IMG/VR virus record: IMGVR_UViG_3300005355_000014
Location: 1 to 32,834 of that record
Strand: one strand, 5' to 3'
Length of the DNA stretch: 32,834 bases
DNA from: a virus
Shown here: piece by piece, positions 11,032-32,834 of the stretch
Position numbering within the stretch: position 1 is the stretch's first letter
Layout: every line of letters starts with the position of its first letter
The notes under the pieces: generated by a model
What the model was told of the DNA's origin: nothing
Seen by the model: the letters and a program-made list of their open reading frames with translations, nothing else
Databases searched by the model: none
Program-made: the position numbers and the translations under genes

Positions 11032-11034
11032 TGG

Positions 11035-11463
11035 CTAATACGTTGCTCGACGCGCCGAGGCGGCCTGCACGCACAGATCATAGGTCTGGTTGCCGTAGGC
11101 CATCGCCAGCAATCCGATGCCTCCTACTCGTGCCATTGTCTCCTGCGCGCGTAGTTTGCACTCAAGCCTGTCCGCCTCTGCCCGCCGAGCATCCGCCTCT
11201 GCCCGCCGAGCATCCTGCTCGGCCTTTCTGATCTGGGCCTGGTAGACGGGATCTGCCGCTTTGCGCGCTACTTCTTTTGCGACCGCTTGGTCGCGAAGCA
11301 TTAGAGATTCGTGCTTTTGCATGTCGGCGGCCTGCACACGATCGAGACAGGCACCGTATGCCTCGCCAGCCCGGCAGTTCTCAGCAGCCCAATCATATTT
11401 GGGCGGATGTGAGCAGCTACTAAGCAGCCCGGCCGCGACCAGACCTAACAACGGGAGATTCAT
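11035..11463 (-). CDS. Lipoprotein with charged coiled coil, moron-like
   Basis: I start at the ATG at 11463 (behind AGGGAA); a longer reading upstream would overlap the neighbouring gene and hide the signal peptide. The 142-residue product begins MNLPLLGLVAAGLLSSC, a type II signal peptide with lipobox LSSC. After the cysteine come a short domain with CRAGEAYGACLDRV, a long charged helix with the tandem ARRAEAD, and an end with AYGNQTYDLCVQA. Four cysteines remain after lipidation. It is encoded against the tail operon, 12 nt downstream of the small gene at 11475. Surface-expressed prophage lipoproteins often alter receptors or block superinfection; that role is inference. An o-spanin is less likely because it is long and not proline-rich. 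Confidence 0.75.
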   Translation of the reverse strand: MNLPLLGLVAAGLLSSCSHPPKYDWAAENCRAGEAYGACLDRVQAADMQKHESLMLRDQAVAKEVARKAADPVYQAQIRKAEQDARRAEADARRAEADRLECKLRAQETMARVGGIGLLAMAYGNQTYDLCVQAASARRATY

Positions 11464-11815: not shown

Positions 11816-14800
11816 ATGTCCGGCACCGGCTACACAAGCGCACCGATTACCGTTTTATCGACCGAGCTGGACAATCTCGCGTCGTCGTCGGGGGACGTGC
11901 TGGCGGTCAGTAGCGCCCTGGTAAATACCACAGGTGCGCCCCTCGCCGATCTCGAGCTGGACTTCGGTGGGACTCGTTCCCCGGTCGCCGACGCCTTTGT
12001 CGAAATCTGGGTGCTGCGTTCGATCGACGGCGGCATCCGCTATGAGGACGGGGCAGCCAATATGGCGCCCGGCCGTCCAGCGGACGCCATCATATCAGTC
12101 GCGTCCGGCACGAACATAACCCCGCACGCGGGCGAGCCATCCCTGATCATGCCGCCGGGTTTCTATAAGATCGCGCTGCGGAACCAGACGGGCGTCACCA
12201 TCCCGACCAGCTCAATCCTGCGCCTGTCGACATACGGTCAATCGACCACGGGCGGCGGCGGGACGGGTTTAACTCTCCCAGGCGATGTTGCGGGCACGAC
12301 AGCCTACCGTATCGCGGACATGCTTGAGCGCTTTGGGGTTGTCACTTACAGCCAGAGCGATACCAGCGTTAACCCGTGGGGCGCTGGCGTATCGGATTAC
12401 ACCACCGGCAGCGTCATCAGCGCACTCAATTATATAACCGCCAACTCCGGGCTGGTGTGCAATCTGCGGGAATACCATGTCGCAGGTCGCGATAGTGGCG
12501 GCGGATCCAATCAACTCTCCTGGTGCCCGACGGTAGCTAGCGCGACGGGCGGTCGCTTTGCGGTCTCTCTATTGCGGGGCGCCGTCGCCGCTGACGCGAC
12601 GAGCCTCTCGAATATGGCGACATCGTCAGCGGGCGGCACTGGTTGGATGGCGTGGGCGGAAGGGTTGAACACGCCGAACGATGGTTCGGTCACCGCGGCA
12701 AACTGCGTCACGGTGCAGCAAACGTTGGAGTCTGGTGTCGCTACTACCGCGTCGTCGTCCAAGCCTGTTGGTGTCGTCGGACCGTCATTCACGTATAATA
12801 CTTTGCCGCCCGAGACCTCGACGGCGATTGCGAACTATCTCACGGCGCAGCAGAAGTCCGATTTGCTGGCGGCATCGGCATTGGCGTCTGTGCGTTATTT
12901 CCCGACCGCCAATCCGGGGGCCAATGACAGCGCGGGGCGTGGTGGCAATTCCGACGATGTGTCGATCGGTCATACGATCTACTTTGGCAAGCCGGAAATT
13001 CTTGGCGAATTCCATCCAACGCAGTTGAGTGGCGATAGTCCGTCGCGCGCCACTGACGACAACATCGGCGCTTATTATGGCGCGCTGATGATGCTGCACG
13101 CACATCGTCTCGACTACCGTGCATGGTTCTGGAAGAGCCTGTTCGACATCGGCCAATCAGGAGACTCGCCATGGGTGAGGGTGGGACTGTTTCCAAACCG
13201 TGGATCGGATACACCACGGCTGCCGGCTCGAGCAATTCGGGCCATGTATGCGTTGACCGGGGATACTGGGTCGTCGAAGCGAAGCTTCCAGCCGTCGAAC
13301 CTGGATTACGCGATTTCGGGTCTGCCCGCACCGCCAGCGTCAGCGACACCATGGATGGGTGGTCATCATCGGCTGTTCCAGAATTCCGGTGGCACGTTCT
13401 TTCTGTTCGTCTGGAGCGAAGCCTTATACCCAGGTGGCTCCGGGACGACGGTTACCATCAGCTTCAACCGCACTATGTCGAAGGTCATTCACTATGACCT
13501 GACCACCGATCCAGCGGCGGCCGAAACACCAGTCAGCACGCTGACGAATATCCCGTCGCTGAGTTTCTCACTTACCGCCTCGGTGCGGTTGTTCGTCATT
13601 TTCCCGCAGGGCTCCACGATCCCCACGGAGTCCGCACAGGATACGACACTCACATCGACGGCTGGCGCGATCTATGACGCATTGGGTGTGGCGTGGACCT
13701 TGGTGAGCAATCCACCATTCGGCTTGCAGGTCGCCCACGCCAGCATGGTCGACAGCCAGAACGTGGTGCTGTTGCTCTATCACGACCACGTCGTGCACCA
13801 GCAGAACAACGTCGGGACATGGCAATTTTGGAATAACGCCACGCAGGCTTGGGTGGTTGAGCCGGGCGATCCGCGCATCCAAATCACCGAGAGCCCGGAA
13901 GGCAGGACCGTCAATACGACCGGTCAGACGATTTTCGCCTCGCAGACACCGGGCCAGGTTGGCGGCGCCACACTCGATGCGTGGGCACTGGACTCTACTG
14001 CGCATGCCACCAAGAACGGCGTGCAGGATGGCGCAACCGCCAATGCGATGGAGTTGTTCTACCACAATCACACGGTTTACCTGGAGCAGACCACAGGCAA
14101 CAGTTTTGGGACGCCGGGTTGGAAGTTCTATAACGGTTCAGGTTGGACCGACTGCCCCAATCCGCACGGCGTTGTTGAGTCGCCCGAAGGCACGCAGGTC
14201 ACTAGCATCGGCCCGACGATCAATGCGTCGGTCACGCCCGGGCAAGCGTCAAACACCCTGCACATCTGGGGGCTGACCGATCCCTTGCCGGGCGAACCCG
14301 CCTTCCGCATGACGTTTGACGGCGCGATCGATGTGGATAGCTGGGGCGTTGACCTGCTCTACTATCACAACCACTCCCTGTATCAGCGCACGGTGGGCTC
14401 CAACTCACTCGGTAGTCCGGCTTGGTATGTCTGGGCGGGTCCTGGCATCAATAATTGGGTTGATACCACCAATCCAAACCCGGTCCAGGGGCCGACCGAA
14501 TCGACTGAAGGCACCACCGTCACCGATTCCGGGCCGATTATTTATGCATCGAGGACACCGGGTCAGGCATCACCGTCTGGTGCGCCGCTCGATCAGTGGA
14601 CAATTACCTCGGGAAGGCAGGCGTTTTTAAATGGCTCGTATGATGGCAGCAGCGCCAATGTTCTCTCGCTATATTATGCCGGGCACTTTGTTTATCACTC
14701 CGCGAGCAACGGTAACAATCTCGGCTTTACCCCGGGCTGGTGGCGCTGGAGCGGCACTGCCTGGGTCGACGTCACCCCGCCGATAGCGCAAACGCAGCAG

Positions 14801-17446
14801 TCGATCGCCATTACGACGATACCGCAGCAAGTCGTCGGAAGTGCATTTAGCGTTGTTGGGACGCTGAGCGGTTATTCGTCGCCGCCATCGCTGCAGTATC
14901 GCGATGGGGCATCGGGCACATTTGTTGCTTTGCCTGCTGGCGCGGTAGTCAGTGCTACGGCGTTTTCCTTTACCCATCCGGCGCTCACTTCGGCGACGAC
15001 GGCAGCTCCAGCAGCGGCGGCTGCTGTGGGCTTTAACATGCGCACGCATGGCCCCAATGTGACGTTGGGGGCAAATTGGAAGGTCCATTCGCCAACGGCG
15101 ACCCAGAATCCGGATGGCTCTGTGAGGCTCTCCGAGGACTTTTACGCTGCCAACTTGAATATCAACACCGCGGGCAACGGTGGCAATTTCGCCGGTGTTG
15201 CATTTGGCGGTGGCGGATACTTCGAGATCGTGTTCTCAATCGAGAACGATATCCTCGGTTGGGGCGGAGATCCAACTGGTTGGCCGGCCTGGTGGATGAA
15301 CAACATAGAAGGGACCTACGACAACGTTCCCAATCCCTTGGTTGATCAGCAGGGTATCGAGTATGACGCTTGCGAATTCCTCGACCCACATGGCACCCCT
15401 ATCAATGCAGGGATTATCCTGTGGTCTGGCGACGGTCGCTTGTGGAACAACACAGACAACGGCCAAGGCAACGGCATTTTCTTGCCGGGCGGCGACTTCA
15501 CGGTGCGGCACAGATATGCGTGGCTCTGGGTTCCTGCAACGAACACCACGCAGGGCTACATAAAGAACTACATCGACGGCGTTCAAAAGGGGCTCACCTA
15601 TACCTGGAATAAGTTTGTGCCAGGCAGATCGTGGGAAGACTCCAAAAATAACGACCCCTGGGCAGTTATGGATACGGGGCGGTATCGGCTGCTGGTTGGA
15701 AGCAATCAGCTGAACCCCATGACCGTTTACTCTGTTGAAGTCTGGCAAGCGAACGATAGCGCGAACCTACGTGTTGGCACCCCGCTGCCTAGTGGAAGCG
15801 GGACGGGATCGACCACGGTCAGTGTGCGCGACGCTGGCAACACCAGCATCCAGGCGACGTCCAATTCGTTCAACGTCGTGGCTAGCGGGTCCGTATCGCT
15901 CAACAACATTACACTGTCGAACAACACACAGATCTCTGGCGCCGTCGCTGGCACAGCGATCGGCACGATAACCGTCGTGGTTTCTGGGGGGCTGTTCAGC
16001 GGCACGCTGGCGGTCAACGACACGGCCCGGTTCAGGATCTCTGGGTCCACGCTGCAAAACAACACGACGCTGGCCGTCGGCAACTATAATATCACCATTA
16101 CTGCGACGCAGGCCTCAGCCAGTGGCTCGCCGCTATCGCGCAACTTCACCATTGCGGTGTCCGGTTCCGGCAACACGACGATCAACTTCTCATCGCCGAC
16201 CGGCAAGACGCTGAATAAGGCGCTGTTCGGCTTCTCCTGCTCGTTCTTCGGCGGCCAGCAGTTCACCAATGCGACGTTCCGGAATACCGCGAATACGTTC
16301 CTCAAGCCATCTGCGCTCTGGTTCAACTCTGACTGGGATCTCGATACCGACTTTGCCAATGGCAACATGACTACGATCAATGCGCTGCTCAATAACTACC
16401 GCTCGTTCTGCCAACCCGGCGTCCGGGTCACCATGGGGTGCTGCAAGGACAACACAGTCTCGGCATCGACCAGGGCATCGCGCGCGGCGAACTTTGCGAC
16501 CTTCCTGAACAACAACGGCTTCTCAGATATTCTGGATTGGACGATCGGTAATATCTGGGACTTCAACGGCATCTCCCAGAATACGGCGCAGAGCTACTTC
16601 AACGCGGTCGCCGATGCGCTGCATGGCGTGAATTCATCATACCGCATTTGGGGGCCGCCGCAGTGGCACGCCGGATCATTCGCCAATTCGACATGGGCGA
16701 ACGCTGTCGGGACGACGCGCAACAATGGTGGCATCGTCTGGGTGTCCTATGATGTCCCGGCGGATAACAACGGCGGTAACATCACGGTTGGCCTCGACGT
16801 CGCATACGGCCAATGGGGCGTGAACAACCAGAACGCTGTCATCCAGCGCAACGCCTTGGCTGGCACGTCGATGGCGAACGCCAGATTTGGCGTCATCGAA
16901 TACAATATGGCCGAGGACATGGTGAACATCATCACCATCAACCAAAGCGGCCGATACATGGGCGGCATTTACGCCGCTTGCTATCTCTACGGAATTTTCA
17001 AATCGGTCGCCAGCGGTGTGGACTTCGCGCATCTGCAGAACATCGTCAATTACAACGACAACGGCGCCATCGGCAATGAGCAGCAGGGCGGCAATCTATC
17101 TGCGGTCAGTTGCGCTGGATACATCATTGGCCGGTTGGGCCAGACTATGTTCGGCCCCGAGTATTCGTCGTCGACCACGATCGCCAATCTGGCAGTGCTT
17201 TCGGTTAAGCCGACCACGACGACCTTCGCCATCCTGCTGATCAACTACGATCTGGCGAATTCGCGGACGGTGAATATAGCGGTGAGCGGCGGGGTTCCGA
17301 CCGGAACGATAACCCGCTGGGAAATCGGCAAGTCATCGCCGGGCGCTCCCAACTCACCGACGCCAACCACCGGCACACAATCGAGCCTCGCGTCGGTTTC
17401 GATCGCCTCCGAGACGGTGGTTATTCTTACGGGGACCCTGGCATGA
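11816..17446 (+). CDS. Very large multi-domain tail fibre / spike with several glycosidase-like domains
   Basis: The 1876-residue product starts at ATG 11816 behind AAAGGA. Domains, by my reading: residues 1-145, anchor domain homologous to the whole protein at 17443; about 160-600, TIM-barrel glycosidase-like with WAEGLNTPND (E282) and EILGEFH (E398) as candidate acid/base and nucleophile; 605-989, four repeats of 87-107 residues; about 990-1060 plus 1332-1357, an Ig-like domain; 1071-1325, a GH16-like domain with WPAWW and EYDACEF (E1182, D1184, E1187) sitting inside that Ig-like domain; about 1357-1455, a cadherin- or Ig-like beta domain; 1455-1876, a second barrel-like glycosidase with FGVIEYN (E1695) and a C-terminal beta sandwich. 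A role in binding and cutting host exopolysaccharide is inferred. Confidence 0.8.
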   Translation: MSGTGYTSAPITVLSTELDNLASSSGDVLAVSSALVNTTGAPLADLELDFGGTRSPVADAFVEIWVLRSIDGGIRYEDGAANMAPGRPADAIISVASGTNITPHAGEPSLIMPPGFYKIALRNQTGVTIPTSSILRLSTYGQSTTGGGGTGLTLPGDVAGTTAYRIADMLERFGVVTYSQSDTSVNPWGAGVSDYTTGSVISALNYITANSGLVCNLREYHVAGRDSGGGSNQLSWCPTVASATGGRFAVSLLRGAVAADATSLSNMATSSAGGTGWMAWAEGLNTPNDGSVTAANCVTVQQTLESGVATTASSSKPVGVVGPSFTYNTLPPETSTAIANYLTAQQKSDLLAASALASVRYFPTANPGANDSAGRGGNSDDVSIGHTIYFGKPEILGEFHPTQLSGDSPSRATDDNIGAYYGALMMLHAHRLDYRAWFWKSLFDIGQSGDSPWVRVGLFPNRGSDTPRLPARAIRAMYALTGDTGSSKRSFQPSNLDYAISGLPAPPASATPWMGGHHRLFQNSGGTFFLFVWSEALYPGGSGTTVTISFNRTMSKVIHYDLTTDPAAAETPVSTLTNIPSLSFSLTASVRLFVIFPQGSTIPTESAQDTTLTSTAGAIYDALGVAWTLVSNPPFGLQVAHASMVDSQNVVLLLYHDHVVHQQNNVGTWQFWNNATQAWVVEPGDPRIQITESPEGRTVNTTGQTIFASQTPGQVGGATLDAWALDSTAHATKNGVQDGATANAMELFYHNHTVYLEQTTGNSFGTPGWKFYNGSGWTDCPNPHGVVESPEGTQVTSIGPTINASVTPGQASNTLHIWGLTDPLPGEPAFRMTFDGAIDVDSWGVDLLYYHNHSLYQRTVGSNSLGSPAWYVWAGPGINNWVDTTNPNPVQGPTESTEGTTVTDSGPIIYASRTPGQASPSGAPLDQWTITSGRQAFLNGSYDGSSANVLSLYYAGHFVYHSASNGNNLGFTPGWWRWSGTAWVDVTPPIAQTQQSIAITTIPQQVVGSAFSVVGTLSGYSSPPSLQYRDGASGTFVALPAGAVVSATAFSFTHPALTSATTAAPAAAAAVGFNMRTHGPNVTLGANWKVHSPTATQNPDGSVRLSEDFYAANLNINTAGNGGNFAGVAFGGGGYFEIVFSIENDILGWGGDPTGWPAWWMNNIEGTYDNVPNPLVDQQGIEYDACEFLDPHGTPINAGIILWSGDGRLWNNTDNGQGNGIFLPGGDFTVRHRYAWLWVPATNTTQGYIKNYIDGVQKGLTYTWNKFVPGRSWEDSKNNDPWAVMDTGRYRLLVGSNQLNPMTVYSVEVWQANDSANLRVGTPLPSGSGTGSTTVSVRDAGNTSIQATSNSFNVVASGSVSLNNITLSNNTQISGAVAGTAIGTITVVVSGGLFSGTLAVNDTARFRISGSTLQNNTTLAVGNYNITITATQASASGSPLSRNFTIAVSGSGNTTINFSSPTGKTLNKALFGFSCSFFGGQQFTNATFRNTANTFLKPSALWFNSDWDLDTDFANGNMTTINALLNNYRSFCQPGVRVTMGCCKDNTVSASTRASRAANFATFLNNNGFSDILDWTIGNIWDFNGISQNTAQSYFNAVADALHGVNSSYRIWGPPQWHAGSFANSTWANAVGTTRNNGGIVWVSYDVPADNNGGNITVGLDVAYGQWGVNNQNAVIQRNALAGTSMANARFGVIEYNMAEDMVNIITINQSGRYMGGIYAACYLYGIFKSVASGVDFAHLQNIVNYNDNGAIGNEQQGGNLSAVSCAGYIIGRLGQTMFGPEYSSSTTIANLAVLSVKPTTTTFAILLINYDLANSRTVNIAVSGGVPTGTITRWEIGKSSPGAPNSPTPTTGTQSSLASVSIASETVVILTGTLA
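13628..14782 (+). repeat. Four tandem protein repeats of about 95 residues in the large fibre gene
   Basis: Units begin at 13628, 13889, 14177 and 14498 (residues 605, 692, 788 and 895). Each opens ES-x-E/D-G/T-T-x-V-T/N (for example ESPEGTQVTSIGPTI). Each has a central YHNHTVY-like strand and ends in a Trp-rich strand (GWKFYNGSGW, AWYVWAG). A fifth relative is residues 53-138 of the protein at 1711. DNA identity is low, so these are old duplications of what may be a carbohydrate-binding module. Confidence 0.8.
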
Positions 17447-17880
17447 CGAACGTTGGCTGGTCGCCCTATGACCTTCCCGTAACGCTGCTCAGCAGCGAGC
17501 TGAACGGATTGGCGAATAATGCCATCTCGGTGATATCCGCCGACACCGTCAACAGCACCGGCCGGCTCTACTGCGACTTTGAGTTCGTGGCGGGCGCCGC
17601 GTTTACGCCTGGGTCAAATGCAATTCTTGATATATGGATGCTGCGCTCAATCGATAATGGCGTGTCGTTCGAGGACGGGTCGTCGTCGCAGCTGCCACCG
17701 CGCGATCCGGACTTGTCGATCGTGGTTCGGGCCGGCACGTCGATCATCCCGCGTGCCGGAGCACCACTGATCGTCTTGCCGGTGGGACACTACAAGGCCC
17801 TTGCCCGTAACCGCCTAGGGGCAGCGGTGCCGACCGGCAGCATCGTGCGTATGGCTGGCTACACCGAGCAAGCGATCTGA
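17443..17880 (+). CDS. Small tail protein homologous to the anchor domain of the large fibre
   Basis: The 145-residue product starts at ATG 17443 in an ATGA overlap. Its whole length aligns with residues 1-145 of the preceding fibre: LPVTLLSSELNGLANNA matches APITVLSTELDNLASSS, and DIWMLRSIDNGVSFEDG matches EIWVLRSIDGGIRYEDG. The fold is beta-rich. A stand-alone copy next to a fused copy suggests an oligomeric baseplate ring or adaptor into which the fibre N-terminus also packs. This protein type appears in other siphophages of Gram-negative hosts without a defined function, as far as I recall. Confidence 0.75.
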   Translation: MTNVGWSPYDLPVTLLSSELNGLANNAISVISADTVNSTGRLYCDFEFVAGAAFTPGSNAILDIWMLRSIDNGVSFEDGSSSQLPPRDPDLSIVVRAGTSIIPRAGAPLIVLPVGHYKALARNRLGAAVPTGSIVRMAGYTEQAI

Positions 17881-17888
17881 GCTAGCTC

Positions 17889-20800
17889 ATGCCGTCGCTG
17901 TTCTCCCTCGACGTTCGGGCGGCGACGGTCAAGCCCGCGCCAGGAGAACGCTCGGTCATCGACCGCGCCGTCCCCGCTGCGGCTGGACTGCGCAGCGTCC
18001 TGCTGTTTGAGGGCCACAGGCTCACCGACCTCAGCAACCCGATCCGTCTGATCAGCAAGCGTGGCTCGGTGGCCATTTCCCAGGGCCTGCACGGCGCGCA
18101 GGCGCGCACGGCGATGACCGGGACGACGGGGCTAGCTGCCTCGCCGTGCCTGCTGCTGGCCCCCACAGACGCGGCGCTGAGCACGCTGACGGTCTCTGCC
18201 TTGGTGCGGTTCAACGGCACTGGGCCGGTCCCTGGCAGCTTCAACACGATCGGTGCGGCACTGGCTGGCGATGACAGCGGGCGGATGCCGCTGTTTGTTT
18301 CCACCGCCGCAGATACGTTTCGTGTGCGGGCTGGCGTCGAGGCGGAATTCCTGTCGGGCGGTCAGCCGCTCAACGTCGCCTCGCTGACCGGTTGGCACCG
18401 GGTGACCGTGACGATCGCCGCCAATGTGGCGACACTCTACGTCGATGGCGGAGCGACGTTCACCGGAACCGCCACGCAGTCGTTCCCCAGCTTTACGCTA
18501 CGCTCGGTTCTTGGCTCGGACGTCACCCTCGGCACCGAGTGGCCTTGGCCGACCGCGGATATGTTCTACTGGTCGCGCGCGCTGTCTGCGCAGGAAGTGC
18601 TGAACCATAGCGTTGGCCCCTATCGGGTGCTGAAGTCGCGACTGGCGGAACGCTGGACCAATCCGACAGTCACGGCACCGCCGGTCGATCCCGGCGGTCG
18701 AGCCTGGGACGATGAATTCACTATCGACTTTGGCAACTCGATCGCATTCGGCGTTATTGCTCAAATCCGCGGCGTCGGTCGGCTGACAGCAACAGCTGCG
18801 GTGATGCATTCATCCCCGCCGATCACGGTTAGTCGTCAGATCGACGGCGCTGGCTTCCTGCATATCGAGGGTTTCGTCCTCAAGAGCCCATCCTTCGCTA
18901 CCGTTTCCGGCGAGGGCACGCTGACGGCCAACCCAATAGTCCGTCGCATGGTATCCGGTCTGGACGGCGTGGGTAATGTTGTCGGATTTCCCCGGCAGCT
19001 GCGTAGCGCAGTATCGCTGATTGATGGCACGGGAAGCCTTAGCGCTCGTCCAGGTATCGGATATACCGCGCGCGCGGCCCAGCGTGGCCAGGGAAACATC
19101 CTGACCGACCCATTCATTCTTGAGCCATTCAATCGTGGCAGGGCTCGCTTCAACGGGATGGGAACGCTAACGGCCAACGCCGTTGTGCGTGCCGCACCAG
19201 TGAATGCAGCAACTTTGCGTGGATCTGGAACACTCAACGCAGTTGGGATCCTGCAGAGGGCACGCGGCCGTTCGGTCATCCTTGGGACCGCACGGCTGTA
19301 TGCCCGACCGACCATCATTCGTAGGCCACGGATGCGGCCTGGCATCGCTTCCGGCGCGGCTCCGGACTTCGTCGCGGTTGAGATTGAGACGTATGTCCCC
19401 GGGAATACGTCGGTCATCGCCGTGGCTGGTCACGGCACGCGTGCGCACGGCACGCTCACGCGTTTACCGCCAGCATCCAAACCAGAGACCACTGCACAGA
19501 TTTTTGCGTCAGATATTGGGTATCGCACCTCGCCGTCCGATCCGCTCAGCCCGCCCGTCAGACCGTATCCTCCTTTGGTTAATGAGGCCTATCAGATTGA
19601 CACGGCGCTCAGCCTAGAGCCTGCGCGCACATCGTCTGCGGCTTCGTGGGGAACCCTGTTACTGGCTAACCCGAATCGGACGTTCGACGATTTGATAGGA
19701 GTGCAGAACTCGGACGGCCGGCCGGTGCGGATCTTGAGTGGTCGTAAGGGCTGGGACAGCAGCTTGCAATATCTCACCGACCCGAACTACGCCAGCTTGA
19801 CTCTTATGTTCTCAGGCCTTGCAGCACCCTGGTCGCTGACTGATGACGGTCTGAGTATCCCACTGCGAGATGCCACGTATTTTATCGAGAGGCCATTACA
19901 ACCGGACGTGTTCGGCGGCAGCGGTGGGTTGGATGGGACGCAGGACCTGGCAGGCAAGCCGCGTCCTATATTGCGCGGAGGCACCGCATCATCTCCGGTT
20001 CAGAACATCACCCCGGTGCTGATAGATCCGGCCAATCGGATTTATCAATACAGTGATGGCCCTGGGTCTATCGTGGCGCTTTACGAGGGTGGTGCTACCG
20101 GATCCGGCGCGATCACGCCCGCCGGAGATACGACAAATCTATATGCGGGCACGACACCGTTCGGCCGGTATAGAACCGACAACTCTCGTGGGCTGTTTCA
20201 ACTTGGCAGTGTGCCTGTCGCAGCCATAACGATAGATGCGGTTGGCCTTTTCCCGATCGCAGGGGCAGTCAATCATCCGTTCATGATATGTCGCTATTTG
20301 ATGAGCGAAGATATGACGCTGCCTGAGTCGATGCTGCATGTTCAGAGTTTTGCCGACTTGGCCGCTGCATACCCGTCATATGTCGCCGGGATGTATTTTG
20401 GTTCTGATGAACAATGGTCGTGTGTGCAAGCGATCGATGCCATTCTATCTGCTCTGGGTGCCAATATCGTCCCTACCAGGGACGGCAAGCTGCGCCTGAT
20501 GCTGTTGCGGGATATCAGTGGAGCCGAACCAGTCGTCGGCAATTACAATGAGGCGACGATTATCAGCTTGCGGCGTCGTCCACTCCCTGCATCGCTTGAT
20601 CCTCCGCCTTATCGGATACGTGTCGGTTATCAGCACAACTACACGGTCATGACCAGCGATATCAACCAAAGCCTGACAACGGCCGATAGGCGGCAATTCA
20701 TCGCCTCGCCTGACCGGTTCGCGACTTTCGTCGATCTCACCCTGTTGCGCGCTTACCGTAAGCCAAACGACTACGCACAAATGCCGAGTCCCCTGCTGAC

Positions 20801-26324: not shown

Positions 26325-26555
26325 TCACAATCCCAGAAAGCCAGCCCTGCGGAGGGCGAATATCCTGTCACGCAGGGCCAGCAGCTCACTCGCTTGATAA
26401 TGCCAATTAAGTTGGCGCTCATCTCCCATCAGAGGCTCGTCGGGGTCCTGGTCGAATGTCGCGCATAGCTCCCTGGCAATTGTCTCAAATGGCGCAAGCC
26501 TTGGGACAACTTCCAGCCATTTACGCATTACCTCATCTGCTTTCGTCTGTGCCAT
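26325..26555 (-). CDS. Small acidic protein, paralogue A
   Basis: The 76-residue product starts at ATG 26555 after GGAGG. It ends in ARELCATFDQDPDEPLMGDE, then RQLNWHYQASELLALRDRIF and ALRRAGFLGL. The paralogue at 27473 shares all but the first 25 residues. The fold is predicted helical and no catalytic residues are evident. The function is unknown. The central 66 bp are identical in DNA to the paralogue. Confidence 0.65.
   Translation of the reverse strand: MAQTKADEVMRKWLEVVPRLAPFETIARELCATFDQDPDEPLMGDERQLNWHYQASELLALRDRIFALRRAGFLGL
26383..26448. repeat. 66-bp perfect direct repeat, copy 1
   Basis: The block begins AGCTCACTCGCTTGATAATG and ends CTCGTCGGGGTCC. It is identical to 27528-27593 (offset 1145 bp) and falls inside the coding sequence of paralogue A. 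Sequence on both sides diverges abruptly. Identity at all third codon positions implies recent recombination or gene conversion rather than simple protein constraint. Confidence 0.95.
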
Positions 26556-27472: not shown

Positions 27473-27727
27473 TTAATCCAATAGACCGGCCCGGCGAAGC
27501 GCCGATATTCGCTGCTGAAGTGCCTCAAGCTCACTCGCTTGATAATGCCAATTAAGTTGGCGCTCATCTCCCATCAGAGGCTCGTCGGGGTCCATTCCGA
27601 ACTCTGCGCAAAGCTCCCGAGCGATAGGTTCGAGATGCTGGAACTTTGGTAACTGCTCTGACCATATGCGCCAGTAGTCGTCTTCCGCCGGACGGCTCGA
27701 TTCTGACTTTTCCTTCCACGGCCACAT
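27473..27727 (-). CDS. Small acidic protein, paralogue B
   Basis: The 84-residue product starts at ATG 27727. Its N-terminus (MWPWKEKSESSRPAEDDYW) differs from paralogue A, but residues from about 33 match: ARELCAEFGMDPDEPLMGDE, then RQLNWHYQASELEALQQRIS. Two copies 1.1 kb apart in the same gene run imply tandem duplication followed by insertion or loss of intervening genes. The function is unknown. Confidence 0.65.
   Translation of the reverse strand: MWPWKEKSESSRPAEDDYWRIWSEQLPKFQHLEPIARELCAEFGMDPDEPLMGDERQLNWHYQASELEALQQRISALRRAGLLD
27528..27593. repeat. 66-bp perfect direct repeat, copy 2
   Basis: Identical to 26383-26448. Recombination between the copies would delete 1145 bp, including three to four small genes, and leave one hybrid paralogue. 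Confidence 0.95.
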
Positions 27728-28161: not shown

Positions 28162-28821
28162 GTGCCGAAAACCTATGCGAGAAATGGCGTTTGGGGTTGG
28201 TCCGTTGAGGCACAGGATACGGTCCTGGCAGCCGCCGCTCCCTCCACCGCTGCGCACTATCGCGACATCCTCAAGGAGAACCGAGCCAAGCGCCCGGCCC
28301 AAATACACGGCGAGTGGCTGACTGAGCGGGATGCCATGTTCCGCCCTACGGGACGCCGGAATCGCGACGACACGATCTATGTCGCCACCATGCTTGCGCT
28401 GGGTATCCGGGAGGCCGATCTGGCCAAGGTGCTTGCCGCTGCTGCCGATCGTGGGCTGACCATTGTGGCGCTGGACAGCGGTGTTTCGATAGCTCCTGCA
28501 GCTGGGGCGCTTGGTGTGAGTGCGGCTCTAGAGGACTGGGCCAGGGCCAAGAGGAGCGCCCAGACGCAGCCGGGTAGATTGCTTGGGGTTCAGGCTGCGG
28601 CCTCCGCCAAGCGGTCCCGCACGATGGCCAAGCTGCCGGAAGCCCGTCCGCTGTGGCGGGATGCGAGACCGGACAGGCTCACGTCAGAGCAGGTTGCTGA
28701 GAGGGTCGGGCTGTCCGTTAAGACGCTCTACAGCGAGCTTGGACGGCGTCCGGCCGTGAAGAAGAAAGCAAGCCGTAGCTTATCCAAGGCGGTGAGGGAG
28801 ATTCATAGTGTCGAAATCTGA
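28162..28821 (+). CDS. Helix-turn-helix DNA-binding protein
   Basis: The 219-residue product starts at GTG 28162. The C-terminal region (residues 173-196: LTSEQVAERVGLSVKTLYSE) is a clear helix-turn-helix of the resolvase/Hin type, followed by a basic tail (KKKASRSLSKAVREI). The middle (ATMLALGIREADLAKVLAAA, then DRGLTIVALDSGVSI) has the helix-strand rhythm of a resolvase-like domain, but I see no catalytic serine region, so recombinase activity is unlikely. It faces the divergent region and leads the early array. It is probably a regulator of one or both operons. Confidence 0.65.
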   Translation: MPKTYARNGVWGWSVEAQDTVLAAAAPSTAAHYRDILKENRAKRPAQIHGEWLTERDAMFRPTGRRNRDDTIYVATMLALGIREADLAKVLAAAADRGLTIVALDSGVSIAPAAGALGVSAALEDWARAKRSAQTQPGRLLGVQAAASAKRSRTMAKLPEARPLWRDARPDRLTSEQVAERVGLSVKTLYSELGRRPAVKKKASRSLSKAVREIHSVEI

Positions 28822-28966
28822 AACGACCCATCCCAGCCTTCTGTTCGAGGAAGCGTGTTTGCTGGATCGAGATATCGACGCCTGGCAGGTGCAGAGCGAC
28901 AAAGAGGAACCGCTGGCGGCCTACCTCGTGCGCATTGGCTGGCGAAAGGAAAATCAGAATGGCTGA
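28808..28966 (+). CDS. Small hypothetical protein, first of the tagged array
   Basis: The 52-residue product starts at GTG 28808 (MSKSETTHPSLLFEEACLL), overlapping the DNA-binding gene by 14 nt. It is acidic and helical, and ends RIGWRKENQNG. It has the short N-terminal tag type (SETT). No function is recognised. The AGGAAAATCAG near its 3' end is the ribosome site of the next gene. Confidence 0.55.
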   Translation: MSKSETTHPSLLFEEACLLDRDIDAWQVQSDKEEPLAAYLVRIGWRKENQNG

Positions 28967-29159
28967 TTCCGACACCACCATGCCGGGGATGACGCCGTTC
29001 CTCGCGGAGCATAAGCGACGCCCGACCGCAAAACAGGATGGCATCAAGGCGTGGCTACAAGATCAAGTTGACTTCCTTCAGACGATCCGACTGACCGATT
29101 TCGGCAACGGCGCCTTGTCTGCTTATAGGTCCACCTTAGAGGAGCTTGACCGTGAGTGA
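28959..29159 (+). CDS. Small hypothetical protein (tag MADSDTT)
   Basis: The 66-residue product starts at ATG 28959, with AGGAAAATCAG upstream and an 8-nt overlap (ATGGCTGA). After the tag come a basic stretch (EHKRRPTAKQDG) and a helix (AWLQDQVDFLQTIRL) ending LEELDRE. It may be a small nucleic-acid- or protein-binding factor. Unrecognised. Confidence 0.6.
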   Translation: MADSDTTMPGMTPFLAEHKRRPTAKQDGIKAWLQDQVDFLQTIRLTDFGNGALSAYRSTLEELDRE

Positions 29160-29350
29160 AGATCAGAAGCCGCAAAACCCAACCACCCAATCTGGACGAG
29201 TCTGACGAAACGTGGGGGCGGCTGCAAATGGCATATCGGGCACGTAAGCAGATGCTTCGTGCCCTGGCTGAGTGGACGGAGGAGATCCGTGAGTTGGAGA
29301 CGCAACGATATGGCTATCCGTCCACCAGGCGAGTGGAGGTGGGACTGTGA
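29156..29350 (+). CDS. Small helical protein whose body is out of frame with its tag
   Basis: The body frame (64 residues from GTG 29156) is helical: RLQMAYRARKQMLRALAEWT and EEIRELETQRYG. The conserved tag, MSEDQKPQNPTTQ, is instead encoded from GTG 29152, which has the best spacing to GGAG and makes the usual 8-nt overlap. That frame stops at 29203-29205, and the body is +1 to it. Possible causes are an indel between 29188 and 29203, a sequencing error, ribosomal slippage, or use of the second GTG. The gene may be functional only if the second GTG is used. Confidence 0.55.
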   Translation: MKIRSRKTQPPNLDESDETWGRLQMAYRARKQMLRALAEWTEEIRELETQRYGYPSTRRVEVGL

Positions 29351-29592
29351 GTGCAGATCCGAAATCGCAAAACTCCACCACGGGCCTTTCGTTGGGGGAG
29401 ATTGATCGCATCATCACCGATCTGAGTGCAACGGCAGACTTCCTGGACTGGCTCTGTGATCGTGGTTACGTCGTGGCCCAACGAAGCATCCAACGCGAAT
29501 GGATTCCGATCTCTGAAGAGACTGCATCAAGGCTAGCGCGAAGCTTTTTGGAAGAAAGGCTGCAAGTGACGAGGATTGCAGATCATGACTGA
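29347..29592 (+). CDS. Small hypothetical protein (tag MSADPKSQNSTT)
   Basis: The 81-residue product starts at GTG 29347 in a GTGA overlap. After the tag it is helical with LGEIDRIITDLSATADFLDW, then a short beta part (GYVVAQRSIQREWIPI) and a C-terminal helix ending ADHD. The terminal HD and stop are encoded by the next gene's start sequence (CATGACTGA). The function is unknown. Confidence 0.6.
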   Translation: MSADPKSQNSTTGLSLGEIDRIITDLSATADFLDWLCDRGYVVAQRSIQREWIPISEETASRLARSFLEERLQVTRIADHD

Positions 29593-29755
29593 CCAGAACT
29601 CATCGACCATCTCTGACCTGTATTCGCAGCTTACATGGCTTCAGCGGCAGCACCGCAAAACATATGAAGAGATGATCTGCATCGAGAATGAAATGGACGA
29701 TATTAGGTCTCAGCTAAAAGCGGCAGGAGAGGAGGCCTTTGCCGATGAGCCATGA
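29585..29755 (+). CDS. 56-residue coiled-coil protein (tag MTDQNSST)
   Basis: ATG 29585 overlaps the previous gene by 8 nt. The sequence after the tag is one long helix: SDLYSQLTWLQRQHRKTYEE, then MICIENEMDDIRSQLK with heptad spacing, and an acidic end. It is probably a dimer. The function is unknown. It is too short for most gene callers but the overlap pattern on both sides supports it. Confidence 0.6.
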   Translation: MTDQNSSTISDLYSQLTWLQRQHRKTYEEMICIENEMDDIRSQLKAAGEEAFADEP

Positions 29756-30002
29756 AGATCAGAAAACGCAAAACTTATCCACAGAACGAGGTCTGATGCA
29801 TCAGCCTCCGCCCGAGCATGTCGGGTATCCGTTCCATTGGATACAATTCTGCGACGACGAGCCGCTTGTGTGGGAATGGAGCCGATTGCACAAATTCTGG
29901 GTAGGCACTCCTTGGCACTATAAGTGTGCTCCTGATAAGCCGAATGCCGGATGGACCTATCTGGCACCAGCCATTCCTCCGAAGTCAGGGAAATCACCAT
30001 GA
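29745..30002 (+). CDS. Hypothetical protein rich in Trp and His (tag MSHEDQKTQNLST)
   Basis: The 85-residue product starts at ATG 29745 behind GGAGAGGAGG, overlapping by 11 nt. The body has PPPEHVGYPFHWIQFCDDEP, LVWEWSRLHKFWVGTP and WHYKCAPDKPNAGWTYLAP. Two cysteines and several histidines could bind metal. The frequent W-x-W and a compact beta look suggest a small phage domain of the type that describes scene elements around tail genes, but none is identified. Confidence 0.6.
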   Translation: MSHEDQKTQNLSTERGLMHQPPPEHVGYPFHWIQFCDDEPLVWEWSRLHKFWVGTPWHYKCAPDKPNAGWTYLAPAIPPKSGKSP

Positions 30003-30313
30003 CCAGTAACCCCACCACCGAGAAGCACGACCAGGACGCCAAGGTGCATGAGGATTTGGGGCGGGCCAGCGTGACGCGGAGAAAGATCCGACCACGATCC
30101 GATACGACCGAGTGGACGGTCGCGATCAGCGACGGACCGAAGTGCCCCAAGTCCCACACGGAAGGATTCGATGACTGGTGGCATGATCCTTCCGTCAGGG
30201 CGAGCGGCGGTATCATGCGCGGACGGCTGCGGTGCCACGGATGCGGCCGGTTCTTCTCCGTCACCTTCTACCATGGCGGCGAGACTCACTCGGCTATGAG
30301 GATCAGAGCATGA
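29999..30313 (+). CDS. Small zinc-binding protein (tag MTSNPTT)
   Basis: The 104-residue product starts at ATG 29999 in an ATGA overlap. After a basic linker (RRKIRPRSDTTEW) the protein has CPKSHTEGFDDWW and then RCHGCGRFFSVTFYHGG. One CxxC pair with another Cys and several His could hold zinc. It resembles small phage zinc-ribbon proteins. Confidence 0.6.
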   Translation: MTSNPTTEKHDQDAKVHEDLGRASVTRRKIRPRSDTTEWTVAISDGPKCPKSHTEGFDDWWHDPSVRASGGIMRGRLRCHGCGRFFSVTFYHGGETHSAMRIRA

Positions 30314-30525
30314 GCAACGATACCACGGACGGCGGACTGGCCATCAAGTGGCCGGTCGCGACCCCAGAGAACCGCGCTCAAGTGGGATGCTATTCTGCTG
30401 TCGTAGGCAATGAACACGCATGCTGGTGCGGTTATTCGATTGCGGTGGGTTTTGGCCAATGTCCTGAGTGCAGAGCAAAACAGGACCCAGACAATGTCAG
30501 ACGAGTGTTGGGAAATCATCTATGA
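30310..30525 (+). CDS. Small zinc-ribbon protein (tag MSNDTT)
   Basis: The 71-residue product starts at ATG 30310 in an ATGA overlap. The body has GCYSAVVGNEHACWCGYS and then FGQCPECRAKQD: C-x-C and CPEC pairs form a plausible zinc ribbon. The end is a basic helix (DNVRRVLGNHL). Confidence 0.62.
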   Translation: MSNDTTDGGLAIKWPVATPENRAQVGCYSAVVGNEHACWCGYSIAVGFGQCPECRAKQDPDNVRRVLGNHL

Positions 30526-30716
30526 GAAACGATACCACCACACTTATCAACCACGTGGCCGCTGCGCTTGCTAGGGAAGCTGGATGGGTAACGCCGTTGA
30601 TGGAGATGGAAGCGGAATTTGTGCTCGGATATCAAAGACGAGCCAAAGCCGCAATTATCGCCATGAATGACTGGGAACGCGAGCAACGATTGTTTGGAGA
30701 TCGCCCCCATGACTGA
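30522..30716 (+). CDS. Small helical protein (tag MRNDTT)
   Basis: The 64-residue product starts at ATG 30522 in an ATGA overlap. It is helical: LINHVAAALAREAGWVTPLM and EFVLGYQRRAKAAIIAMNDW. It ends RPHD, with the last codons made by the CATGACTGA junction. The function is unknown. Confidence 0.6.
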   Translation: MRNDTTTLINHVAAALAREAGWVTPLMEMEAEFVLGYQRRAKAAIIAMNDWEREQRLFGDRPHD

Positions 30717-30906
30717 CAACACGACCGACTGGCGGGAAGCAATGAAGGCCCGCGAAATGGGAACGATCCTGCGGCACCTCTACATTGCCTTGGGCGCGGC
30801 GACTATGATCAATGACGAGGAAGTCATCGGTCAGTTAAGGCCGATCATATTCCGCTACCGCGAGAAGACGGCGAATGACCTTGCGGGGACGCCCTATGCA
30901 GAATGA
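30709..30906 (+). CDS. Small helical protein (tag MTDNTT)
   Basis: The 65-residue product starts at ATG 30709 with an 8-nt overlap. Helices are EAMKAREMGTILRHLYIALG and EEVIGQLRPIIFRYREKTAN. It may be weakly related to its neighbour at 30522 in layout, but no alignment is claimed. The function is unknown. Confidence 0.6.
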   Translation: MTDNTTDWREAMKAREMGTILRHLYIALGAATMINDEEVIGQLRPIIFRYREKTANDLAGTPYAE

Positions 30907-31060
30907 TGCAAATCAGAAGCCGCAGAACCATACGACCCAACACTGGACCAGCCGTTATTACGCAACGGTTCTGTCTTTAGTGCTGTCCTGGGGCTTCGTG
31001 TGGGGCATTGTCATTGGGGCACATCTCGAAAAGATTACGGAATTTCTGAATGACCGATAA
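30896..31060 (+). CDS. Single-pass membrane protein (long tag with QKPQNHTT)
   Basis: The 54-residue product starts at ATG 30896, overlapping by 11 nt. The tag MQNDANQKPQNHTTQH is followed by one transmembrane helix (YYATVLSLVLSWGFVWGIVI, then GAHLEKITEFLNDR). It is a membrane protein with the tag on one side of the membrane, showing that the tag is not tied to soluble proteins. Confidence 0.65.
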   Translation: MQNDANQKPQNHTTQHWTSRYYATVLSLVLSWGFVWGIVIGAHLEKITEFLNDR

Positions 31061-31373
31061 ACCAACCACCGCTTTCGAGTGTATCAACTGCGGTAACAAG
31101 ATCGCTCAATTGCCGTGCCATGTATGCGGCGGGATATGGTGTCGGGCGACGGCGACGATAGAGACGCCCGCGAAACTAACCACCGTCGGATGGCGCCTGC
31201 TGGTATTCGATCAAGCCACGGAGGGGCTGGTGACAGAGGTCATGTTGACCCATGACCAAGCGGTGAAACTCCGTCCATATCTGGGTATCGTAGATACAGA
31301 TGACCATTTTGGGTCATACCCGGTCGCGGGTTTGTCGTGGTTCGCAGAGGAGCATGTGGAAGATCATGACTGA
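31050..31373 (+). CDS. Zinc-ribbon protein (tag MTDKPTT)
   Basis: The 107-residue product starts at ATG 31050, overlapping by 11 nt. CINCGNKIAQLPCHVCGGIW provides two CxxC pairs, a compact zinc ribbon. The remainder is beta-rich (GWRLLVFDQATEGLVTEVML) and acidic, ending VEDHD at the CATGACTGA junction. It is possibly an adaptor that modifies a host enzyme, which is inference only. Confidence 0.65.
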   Translation: MTDKPTTAFECINCGNKIAQLPCHVCGGIWCRATATIETPAKLTTVGWRLLVFDQATEGLVTEVMLTHDQAVKLRPYLGIVDTDDHFGSYPVAGLSWFAEEHVEDHD

Positions 31374-31608
31374 CCGACCCGAGACGACCCGCAAGGTCGG
31401 AGAGAACGATCCGATCTACCGCATTCGCCAACGCGAATCGACGGTCGAGATCGGATGGGTGCAGGGCAGGTTTCGGCATATCGATGAATGGATGACACGA
31501 CTTGGGCTACATTCCAGGTCTCCCCAGTTTCTATCCGAGCCCATCAGCGACGAGGCCAGGCGCAAAATAGACAATAGGCTCGCTAGCGTTCCGAGAATCA
31601 AACTATGA
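31366..31608 (+). CDS. Small hypothetical protein (tag MTDRPETT)
   Basis: The 80-residue product starts at ATG 31366 with an 8-nt overlap. The body has DPIYRIRQRESTVEIGWVQG, then RFRHIDEWMTRLGLHSRSP and SDEARRKIDNRLASVPRIKL. It is basic and probably alpha/beta. Unrecognised. Confidence 0.6.
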   Translation: MTDRPETTRKVGENDPIYRIRQRESTVEIGWVQGRFRHIDEWMTRLGLHSRSPQFLSEPISDEARRKIDNRLASVPRIKL

Positions 31609-31799
31609 ACGATCAGCCGACGCAAAACTCAACGACCCGGGACATGGACGTCTTCGACGAAGGGTATGACGCATTCGTGGATAACCACTTAGACCGCGAC
31701 GCATGTCCTTACCCTATCGGGGCAGCCAAACGTAAAGACTGGCTAAGGGGATGGGACTGCGCTTTGGACTATGCGGCGACTGCGACGTGGGAAGATTAA
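31605..31799 (+). CDS. Ribosome modulation factor-like small protein (tag MNDQPTQNSTT)
   Basis: The 64-residue product starts at ATG 31605 in an ATGA overlap. The segment CPYPIGAAKRKDWLRGW matches the Rmf/CrpP-type pattern (N/C-P-Y, small linker, W-x-x-G-W) seen in bacterial ribosome modulation factors and in many phage and plasmid relatives. Rmf dimerises 70S ribosomes in E. coli; the role of phage versions is mostly unknown. An acidic segment (MDVFDEGYDAFVDNHL) precedes the motif. Confidence 0.65.
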   Translation: MNDQPTQNSTTRDMDVFDEGYDAFVDNHLDRDACPYPIGAAKRKDWLRGWDCALDYAATATWED

Positions 31800-31800
31800 C

Positions 31801-31941
31801 ATGACTGATTCCGATACCACCGCAAACTGGTGGCATACGCCCATCGTGTCTCCGCATCAGGTCATTCTGACACTGATCACGTGGACATTTGCGCTGAACA
31901 TCCTTTTGGCCACTGTGAGGGCGCTATGGCAGATCACTTAG
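31801..31941 (+). CDS. Small membrane protein (tag MTDSDTT)
   Basis: The 46-residue product starts at ATG 31801, one base after the previous stop. After the tag and a Trp-rich spacer (ANWWHTPIVSPHQ) there is one transmembrane helix (VILTLITWTFALNILLATVR). It is too short for most gene finders. The next gene begins within its last codons. Confidence 0.6.
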   Translation: MTDSDTTANWWHTPIVSPHQVILTLITWTFALNILLATVRALWQIT

Positions 31942-32117
31942 ACAGATCCCAGATGACCGATCCAGACTCGCTCGCATTGTGGAGAAGTATCGGCCGGATG
32001 GCCCGCTTAGCCAACGAACCGTGTGAGCCTCCATCGGTTCTGTCCTATCTGAATGACGCCTGGGTTGAAGGATGGCGGCAGGAAGATACGAAGCAGGAAG
32101 GTCAACATGCCAGATAA
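31926..32117 (+). CDS. Small hypothetical protein
   Basis: The 63-residue product starts at ATG 31926, with GAGGG five bases upstream and a 16-nt overlap. A second in-frame ATG at 31953 begins MTDPDSLAL, which looks like the array's tag, so the true start may be there. The body has ALWRSIGRMARLANEPCEPP and LNDAWVEGWRQED. It is helical and of unknown function. Confidence 0.55.
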   Translation: MADHLDRSQMTDPDSLALWRSIGRMARLANEPCEPPSVLSYLNDAWVEGWRQEDTKQEGQHAR

Positions 32118-32442
32118 ACCAACGACCCGCGAAGATCTCATTGGCACCGGCATTATCCAGTGCTGTCCTGAATGTGGTCTGCCACTAGAGGGGGTGGCCA
32201 TCAACATTCACGGTTCACTTCCCTACATTCGCCACATCAATGTGTCTGGGAATATCAGGGGGGCGATTCGCAGATCGGCGGGAAACAGCGAGAAGTTGGC
32301 GGTCGAGCTGACCAACATGATCGTCGGCCAGGAATTCCCCGTTGAGGAGATCGGCGATATCCTCGAATGTATCAGCATTTATCAGCCGACACCGATCCCT
32401 ACCGAGGTCGTAGAGGCAATAAGGGCCCGTTTGAATGTCTGA
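32107..32442 (+). CDS. Small protein with partial zinc knuckle (tag MPDKPTT)
   Basis: The 111-residue product starts at ATG 32107, overlapping by 11 nt. CCPECGLPLEG forms a CxxC knuckle near the N-terminus. The rest is alpha/beta, with SGNIRGAIRRSAGNSEKLAV and EEIGDILECISIYQP. The second zinc pair is missing, so metal binding is uncertain. Confidence 0.6.
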   Translation: MPDKPTTREDLIGTGIIQCCPECGLPLEGVAINIHGSLPYIRHINVSGNIRGAIRRSAGNSEKLAVELTNMIVGQEFPVEEIGDILECISIYQPTPIPTEVVEAIRARLNV

Positions 32443-32692
32443 CGAGCGAAACTCATCGACCGGCTGGCAGGCATGGTGGAAACCGATAAGCACTGCGTCC
32501 CAGCAGAGCTATGAGACGCGCTACATCGACGCAGCACACGACAGGGCTGCGCGCGCCATTGCAAGTGTGCTGACTGATTCAGGCGCGTTGAGGCCCGGCC
32601 CCGCACTGAACTGTGCCATGGCGTGCCTCACGCGGCTGCAAGGAGAGGGGCTGCTGGTTGCGGATGGGAAGATGGAGCTATGGCAGAGATGA
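32435..32692 (+). CDS. Small helical protein (tag MSDERNSST)
   Basis: The 85-residue product starts at ATG 32435 with an 8-nt overlap. The body is helical: YETRYIDAAHDRAARAIASV, then GPALNCAMACLTRLQGEGL. No catalytic motif is recognised. Confidence 0.6.
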   Translation: MSDERNSSTGWQAWWKPISTASQQSYETRYIDAAHDRAARAIASVLTDSGALRPGPALNCAMACLTRLQGEGLLVADGKMELWQR

Positions 32693-32834
32693 GTGACGAT
32701 CAAGACAGCAATTCCGAAACCACCCGGGACCTCGCATGGTCCTGCCGACCTGATGCGCGCGACCTTTTTGTTCGTGCGGAGCTAGTTCTGAGCCGCGTTC
32801 ACACGATCGCATCGGCGGCACTTAACGGACTTCA
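32689..32834 (+). CDS. N-terminal part of the next tagged gene (partial)
   Basis: ATG 32689 lies in an ATGA overlap. The frame stays open to the window end for 48 residues: MSDDQDSNSETTRDLAW, then a helical region (DLFVRAELVLSRVHTIASAA). The SETT end of the tag again matches the array. The array therefore continues past the window. Confidence 0.6.
   Translation, partial: MSDDQDSNSETTRDLAWSCRPDARDLFVRAELVLSRVHTIASAALNGL

Follow-up and report, generated by a model that had tools for sequence, protein, structure and literature searches.

A phage array of tagged small genes as a putative train of in-frame cassettes exchanged at a translated hexamer

The DNA analysed here, IMG/VR record IMGVR_UViG_3300005355_000014 (32,834 nucleotides, nt; hereafter the window), ends in an array of nineteen overlapping plus-strand genes (starts 28808 to 32689), each beginning with a short leader peptide, or tag, that ends in Thr-Thr, Ser-Thr or Met-Thr, with Thr-Thr encoded by the hexamer ACSACC (Table 1). 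An earlier note on this DNA had described a shared N-terminal tag in nearly all genes from 28808 onwards. The tag is present in 19/19, and a gene which the note would place at 31954 actually starts at 31926 (MADHLDRSQMT/DPDSLALW; the slash separates leader and body) and hence is tagged as well. A second record of the same phage, IMGVR_UViG_3300025931_000285 (G001; 61,241 nt), shares 31,373 nt with the window at 100% identity, bringing the known sequence of the phage to 62.7 kb, with the array at its right end. The array runs past the end of the window, and the second record adds no further array genes. Matches to tape measure, minor tail and tail fibre proteins indicate a tailed phage.

Thr, Ser or Met followed by Thr occurs within residues 2–15 of 19/19 array proteins (TT in 15/19), compared to 9/116 control stretches of 14 residues taken from the bodies of the same proteins and 11/53 open reading frames of the same phage outside the array (TT in 6/53). 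When a weight matrix trained on other phages only was used to score 125,376 positions, ranks 1–5 were taken by five window tags and the top 20 included 9/19 tags. Chance is thus excluded as the source of the pattern. Purine-rich stretches resembling ribosome sites precede the tags.

We compared the array with that of a related phage, L034 (IMGVR_UViG_3300025941_000657), the tail-end genes of which are 49–67% identical to those of the window at the protein level and ~63% identical in the longest DNA alignment. The two arrays have eight modules in common, in scrambled order and with 75–98% nucleotide identity. Because this range contrasts with the ~63% of the tail genes, the modules must have travelled separately. 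In both genomes, 16/16 module borders are located at the ACSAC of the hexamer, two of the border sites in L034 being mutated, to ACCGCC and GCCGCC. If a border were free to lie at any point up to 25 nt from a leader, 16/16 would fall in the hexamer zone with a probability of ~1e−10. The same body may follow different leaders in the window and in L034, as in MQNDANQKPQNH/TTQHWTS and MPDEDHPDRSQ/TTQHWTS, MPDKP/TTREDL and MNNRPDRSE/TTREDL, or MNDQPTQNS/TTRDMD and MSPND/TTRDMD (window form first). Conversely, one leader, still joined to its upstream gene, may precede two bodies (MTDN/TTDWRE and MTDN/TTIPEF; MSDERNS/STGWQ and MSDKRNS/STGHM). Since the borders lie at the hexamer and the leader stays with the upstream gene, the moving unit extends from one Thr-Thr to the next, comprising a body, its stop, a ribosome site, a start codon and the next leader; all swaps are thereby kept in frame.

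One option of the earlier note was that cargo genes are shuffled at their 5′ ends by way of a repeated element, perhaps as a cassette system for phage accessory genes. Both parts of this idea are strongly supported by the module exchange with L034, in which cargo genes do swap, and by a cassette duplication described below. The accompanying picture of cargo swapping behind a constant tag has to be turned around: the tag goes with the module upstream of it, and it is at its 3′ end, in the Thr-Thr hexamer, that modules are exchanged. The hexamer is not confined to gene starts. L034 has a gene that opens with the initial 95 nt of gene 7 and passes, without a change of frame, into the body of gene 9; the joint is the ACGACC internal to gene 7 (30104–30109 in the window). 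A site inside a gene thus acts like one at a gene start. Internal tag-like sites are also found within single genes at L037 2056–2457 (IEDQPDKSQTT; site 2191) and L039 10350–10616 (YENRTT), which suggests that cassette joints can create fusion proteins too.

Not just the reading phase of the site but also its DNA sequence is conserved. In 54/54 cases the first Thr codon reads ACC or ACG, although ACA and ACT make up 31–32% of the Thr codons used in array bodies and 27% of those in large structural genes. After removal of near-identical leaders, with synonymous codons redrawn from body usage, wobble bases were non-random at codons −3 (A/T), −2 (C), 0 (C/G) and +1 (C) and random at codons −5, −4 and +2, in each of two separate sets of phages (the window with L034, and four others). 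The motif can be written as RAWWMCNMNACSACC (an example tag site is ATGACTGACAAGCAGACGACC), with A-rich bases upstream of the hexamer and with A and C at positions +3/+4 invariant in 63/63 sites. In the border alignments, mutated sites aside, the base at +2 varies only with the leader and the base at +5 only with the body, so that, wherever it can be decided (seven informative junctions), exchange most likely takes place within this AC. Neither an inverted-repeat structure nor an attC-like hairpin was seen at the module borders.

The head gene of the L034 array encodes a serine recombinase (PF00239, E-value = 8e−40), and such a gene heads most of the related arrays, where it lies immediately before the first tagged gene or overlaps it. 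Based on sequence, the closest solved relatives of these linked recombinases are DNA invertases (Gin, structure 4m6f, E-value = 6e−40), and the catalytic motifs of the Resolvase domain (YARVS..Q and KLDRLxRN) are intact. In viral contigs, a tagged array follows each of the nearest relatives of the L034 recombinase (L037/L038, L039, L040 and L041). Loci of more distant recombinases have none, except that at L059 tagged genes lie behind a broken recombinase; a class-wide recombinase search revealed no tagged arrays. The array phages were found via the recombinase, and bare co-occurrence is therefore biased, whereas the distribution within the recombinase phylogeny is not. In a tree of 82 recombinase domains, scored by whether the next gene carries a tag, all ten positives fall in a single clade of 14 (support 0.94), that is, 10/14 inside versus 0/68 outside the clade (Fisher test, 5e−10). 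Among the remaining four members, one contig ends within the gene, two recombinases are followed by degenerate tags (MTATQT and MTDNRT) and one by none. Upstream of chromosomal recombinases lies a palindrome, TGTCAACNAWGTTGACA, which overlaps the promoter of the linked recombinase and is reminiscent of res sites. A connection between this palindrome and the TGACAA of the tag was considered and rejected by eye, the spacing being unsuitable.

Neither the recombinase link nor arrays outside phages figured in the earlier note. Searches of the family Acetobacteraceae and its order revealed the same arrangement of recombinase and tagged genes in bacterial genomes, with one copy (G860) matching a plasmid of 165,009 nt from a cultured strain, Acetobacter vaccinii KACC 21233 (NZ_CP043507.1, 63795–64522). 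In five genomes, a ~730-nt block comprising promoter, recombinase and first leader is 77–90% identical; in three of them homology extends just to the final base(s) of ACGACC, and unrelated genes come next. At G285:C22, the block is followed by more than 10 tagged genes, located beside a HEC-01A/B defence gene pair. One cassette at this locus is duplicated: its copies (10829–11111 and 15369–15651, reverse complement; 283 nt) are 99.6% identical and 4.5 kb apart, the identity spans from ACGACC to ACGACC, and both the leaders before and the genes after differ. A search with the DNA pattern of the site, which is independent of the recombinase, identified it in 10/377 Acetobacteraceae genomes, in clusters of up to eight (none for the reversed pattern), and in 0/367 other alphaproteobacterial genomes. 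Because the same arrays and sites occur in Acetobacteraceae, the host of the window phage is probably a member of this family.

The QKPQN-type DNA pattern was found in 25 IMG/VR stretches, array tags being present only in those of the same phage. In the INPHARED phage records, nothing matched at the DNA level and the head gene had no relative; only invertases with less than 60% identity turned up. No DNA match to the window array was detected in plasmids, further viral scans for close relatives yielded no additional array phage, and a search of the genus around G264 revealed no additional close copy. Within chromosomal arrays, near-perfect inverted repeats of 24–28 nt were observed inside cassette genes (L158, reverse complement, 10953–10976; L160, 11058–11085). 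In another locus (L161), an LmuB (Lamassu) defence gene (12224–13930, E-value = 3e−200) is located ~3 kb past a tagged gene.

We consider it reasonably likely that the array is a train of in-frame cassettes exchanged at the hexamer, most probably by a Gin-like serine recombinase. A cassette would reach from the ACSACC near one gene start to that of the next gene and would contain a single gene body with its stop, together with everything that opens the next gene (ribosome site, start codon and leader). The joint between two cassettes would lie in the hexamer, its most likely position being the invariant AC in the second Thr codon. Since the codon phase of the hexamer is constant, any cassette could be joined behind any other and translated at once, its N-terminus being lent by the upstream neighbour. 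Excision between two hexamers might yield a circular cassette whose trailing leader is now linked to the body of the same cassette, making up a complete gene again, and the non-palindromic AC core would explain the uniform orientation of cassettes. Given such joining and borrowing of N-termini, the shared peptide would be the translated half of a recombination site rather than a signal. Exchange at Thr-Thr is well supported by the comparison of arrays; for the enzyme, the linked serine recombinase is the most likely candidate, and the window phage would use one encoded outside the known part of its genome or by its host. The cargo probably consists of counter-defence or accessory genes. Whether the whole amounts to a serine-recombinase-driven counterpart of the integron, with a site translated as leader, serving temperate phages, plasmids and chromosomes of Acetobacteraceae as in-frame cassettes of accessory, probably defence or counter-defence, genes, is in our estimate evenly balanced.

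Several observations weigh against this proposal. PF00239 was not found in G001, leaving the window phage without a recognisable serine recombinase in its known sequence. Its head gene occupies the place of the recombinase in relatives, and its helix-turn-helix matches are below the cut-off; it also matches phrog_664 ('DNA binding protein', E-value = 1.3e−4). It is not detectably a recombinase itself: the blastp hit was weak (33%, 61 aa), the hhalign probability was 11.5%, and a single-sequence structure model (pLDDT 48.7) was uninformative. Several orphan tagged genes have no recombinase within the 8–16 kb read. A serine invertase or resolvase normally requires a pair of half-sites; sequence logos revealed neither a conserved right half-site nor a dyad, only the left side being conserved. 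The seven informative junctions fit an AC core and are also compatible with a crossover at another point of the hexamer. In a second duplicated cassette, the left border lies at ACGACC, but the right one falls just past a stop codon, with no hexamer. In some cases tags are common to phages without either neighbouring body, which implies that exchange also takes place at the 5′ edge of the tag.

Some of these points favour the main rival, namely that dispersed short homologies are joined by general recombination (RecT/YqaJ-type annealing or rare illegitimate joining), with selection for in-frame joints and with the linked recombinase serving some other purpose. The tags do share 20–40 nt of partial similarity and also move separately at their 5′ edge, no recombinase is recognised in the window phage, and L039 encodes a YqaJ recombinase. 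However, 16/16 borders fall at the hexamer, although the start, ribosome site or tag would do equally well, many exchanged tags have only 5–6 nt in common, and the link to a single recombinase clade is left unexplained; we regard this explanation as the less probable one. The earlier note also raised an aid to initiation or coupling. Such a role of the tag in translation, as an mRNA start that is unstructured or bound specifically and is kept by selection on expression, is not needed and seems improbable. The ribosome-site-like stretches, gene overlaps and A-rich bases upstream of the hexamer would suit such a role, but the hexamer lies at a varying distance of 3–12 codons past the start, which argues against a start-positioned device, occurs inside genes, marks recombination joints and is mostly missing from the ordinary genes of the phage. 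A peptide signal, likewise an option of the earlier note (here taken as a targeting, protease or packaging handle for proteins acting in one place), is more doubtful still and unlikely to be the main cause of the tag: a polar leader ending in Thr-Thr is indeed kept at the amino-acid level across phages, yet wobble bases are constrained as DNA, one body carries very different leaders in two phages, the site also lies inside genes (30104–30109; L037 2191) and the cargo is diverse, from membrane proteins to zinc ribbons and a protein related to ribosome modulation factor (RMF).

Cassette exchange at the hexamer, as proposed here, resembles the integron in having a recombinase gene at the head with the first site beside it, cassettes in one orientation, modular exchange and duplication at a short defined site, and orphan cassettes. 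Unlike in integrons, there is no tyrosine IntI, the head genes encoding PF00239 serine recombinases (in the window, a helix-turn-helix-like protein); no attC separates the genes, the borders lying inside the reading frame at a translated ACSACC; and each cassette lends the start of the next gene. With the serine invertases and resolvases (Gin, Cin, Hin, Tn3 resolvase) the linked recombinases share the Resolvase domain and its intact motifs. The known enzymes invert or resolve one segment between dyad sites, whereas the arrays contain many direct repeats without a visible dyad; the invariant AC and the junctions would fit a 2-bp exchange, though with no conserved right half-site. In type III effectors formed by terminal reassortment, a leader with promoter and secretion signal defines the chimera. 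This concept, named in PMC6460904, is similar in that unrelated bodies stand behind a common N-terminus, but here the leader stays with the upstream cassette. According to PMC4503421 (citing Arbiol 2010 and Comeau 2014), promoter early stem-loop (PeSL) elements likewise are repeated short elements that mediate modular shuffling of small genes in T4-type phages; they are, however, intergenic promoters with a stem-loop, whereas here the genes overlap and the repeated element forms an in-frame part of the coding sequence. The start-associated sequences (SAS) of Cluster K mycobacteriophages are short asymmetric repeats of the GGGATAGGAGCCC type found, in one orientation, at the starts of many unrelated non-structural genes (PMC3203893). 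They occupy the ribosome-site position 3–7 nt upstream of the start, in contrast to RAWWMCNMNACSACC, which lies downstream of it, and the available part of that paper describes neither shuffling borders nor a linked recombinase.

No description of such a system was found in the literature covered, which leaves out most subscription papers, and this would be a previously undescribed way of gene shuffling. If the proposal is correct, a cassette system based on a different enzyme class would stand beside the integron, following the simple rule that any gene can be inserted, and immediately expressed, by way of one codon-phased joint inside the gene start. The rearrangement of hypervariable small-gene regions in phages would then be explained, and phage and chromosomal cargo would be connected. 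The tag would then serve as a search key for unknown accessory genes, and the joint as a possible tool for in-frame gene assembly.

Table 1. Genes of the tagged array in the window; a slash in the tag precedes its terminal residue pair.
Feature	Position	Strand	Tag	Site	Remarks
Head gene	28162..28821	+			219 aa; weak helix-turn-helix matches only
Gene 1	28808..28966	+	MSKSE/TT	28823-28828	body in L034 behind MSDQNS/TT
Gene 2	28959..29159	+	MADSD/TT	28974-28979	L034 tag MANSD/TT, other body
Gene 3	29152..29205	+	MSEDQKPQNP/TT	29182-29187	stop after 17 codons
Gene 4	29347..29592	+	MSADPKSQNS/TT	29377-29382	
Gene 5	29585..29755	+	MTDQNS/ST	29603-29608	
Gene 6	29745..30002	+	MSHEDQKTQNL/ST	29778-29783	
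Gene 7	29999..30313	+	MTSNP/TT	30014-30019	internal second site ACGACC, 30104-30109
Gene 8	30310..30525	+	MSND/TT	30322-30327	
Gene 9	30522..30716	+	MRND/TT	30534-30542 (ACCACCACA)	
Gene 10	30709..30906	+	MTDN/TT	30721-30726	same tag and upstream body in L034, other body after
Gene 11	30896..31060	+	MQNDANQKPQNH/TT	30932-30937	L034 body behind MPDEDHPDRSQ/TT
Gene 12	31050..31373	+	MTDKP/TT	31065-31070	zinc ribbon and DUF7683-like body
Gene 13	31366..31608	+	MTDRPE/TT	31384-31389	L034 body behind MAENP/TT
Gene 14	31605..31799	+	MNDQPTQNS/TT	31632-31637	RMF domain; L034 body behind MSPND/TT
Gene 15	31801..31941	+	MTDSD/TT	31816-31821	
Gene 16	31926..32117	+	MADHLDRSQ/MT	31953-31958 (ATGACC)	75% identical L034 body behind MVDQPNQSE/TT
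Gene 17	32107..32442	+	MPDKP/TT	32122-32127	98% identical L034 body behind MNNRPDRSE/TT
Gene 18	32435..32692	+	MSDERNS/ST	32456-32461	tag twice in L034, other bodies
Gene 19	32689..32834	+	MSDDQDSNSE/TT	32719-32724	runs off window

Gene 3 deserves a separate comment. Its product, read from 29152, is MSEDQKPQNPTTQSGRV followed by the stop, and another frame of the same DNA is open at 29156–29350, from a GTG at 29156. It may be a frameshifted cassette, or the second start may read the tag DNA in another frame. As to the cargo, the RMF domain of gene 14 was recognised above the cut-off (PF04957, E-value = 8e−7). The bodies had been called unrelated, which is true of most of them, but some families (RMF-like proteins, zinc ribbons) recur. 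RMF-like cargo is found in different arrays, in the window and at L123 2484–2687 (minus strand; PF04957, 1e−3, below the cut-off), and DnaJ-like CXXCXGXG zinc ribbons are among the cargo of both L037 and L040.

In the array-bearing phage contigs L039 and L040, a tyrosine integrase gene directly follows the array on the opposite strand. The array phages are thus probably temperate, with the array situated between the tail/lysis genes and the integrase. In L034, type IV secretion genes directly follow the array (14102–17879, minus strand), including a VirD4-like gene (PF02534, E-value = 5e−26) and, judged by eye, VirB11- and VirB10-like genes; given this neighbourhood, the L034 phage may have inserted itself into a conjugative element or be joined to one. 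Two minus-strand genes of the window, 26325–26555 and 27473–27727, share a 92-nt stretch (26383–26473 and 27528–27618; 91% identity), a duplicated C-terminal module that is present in L034 too. Another repeated module, with 77% DNA identity, is found in two large proteins (window 15406–15619; G001, reverse complement, 20035–20251) and contains GFNxRTxGPxVTLGxNW-like motifs.

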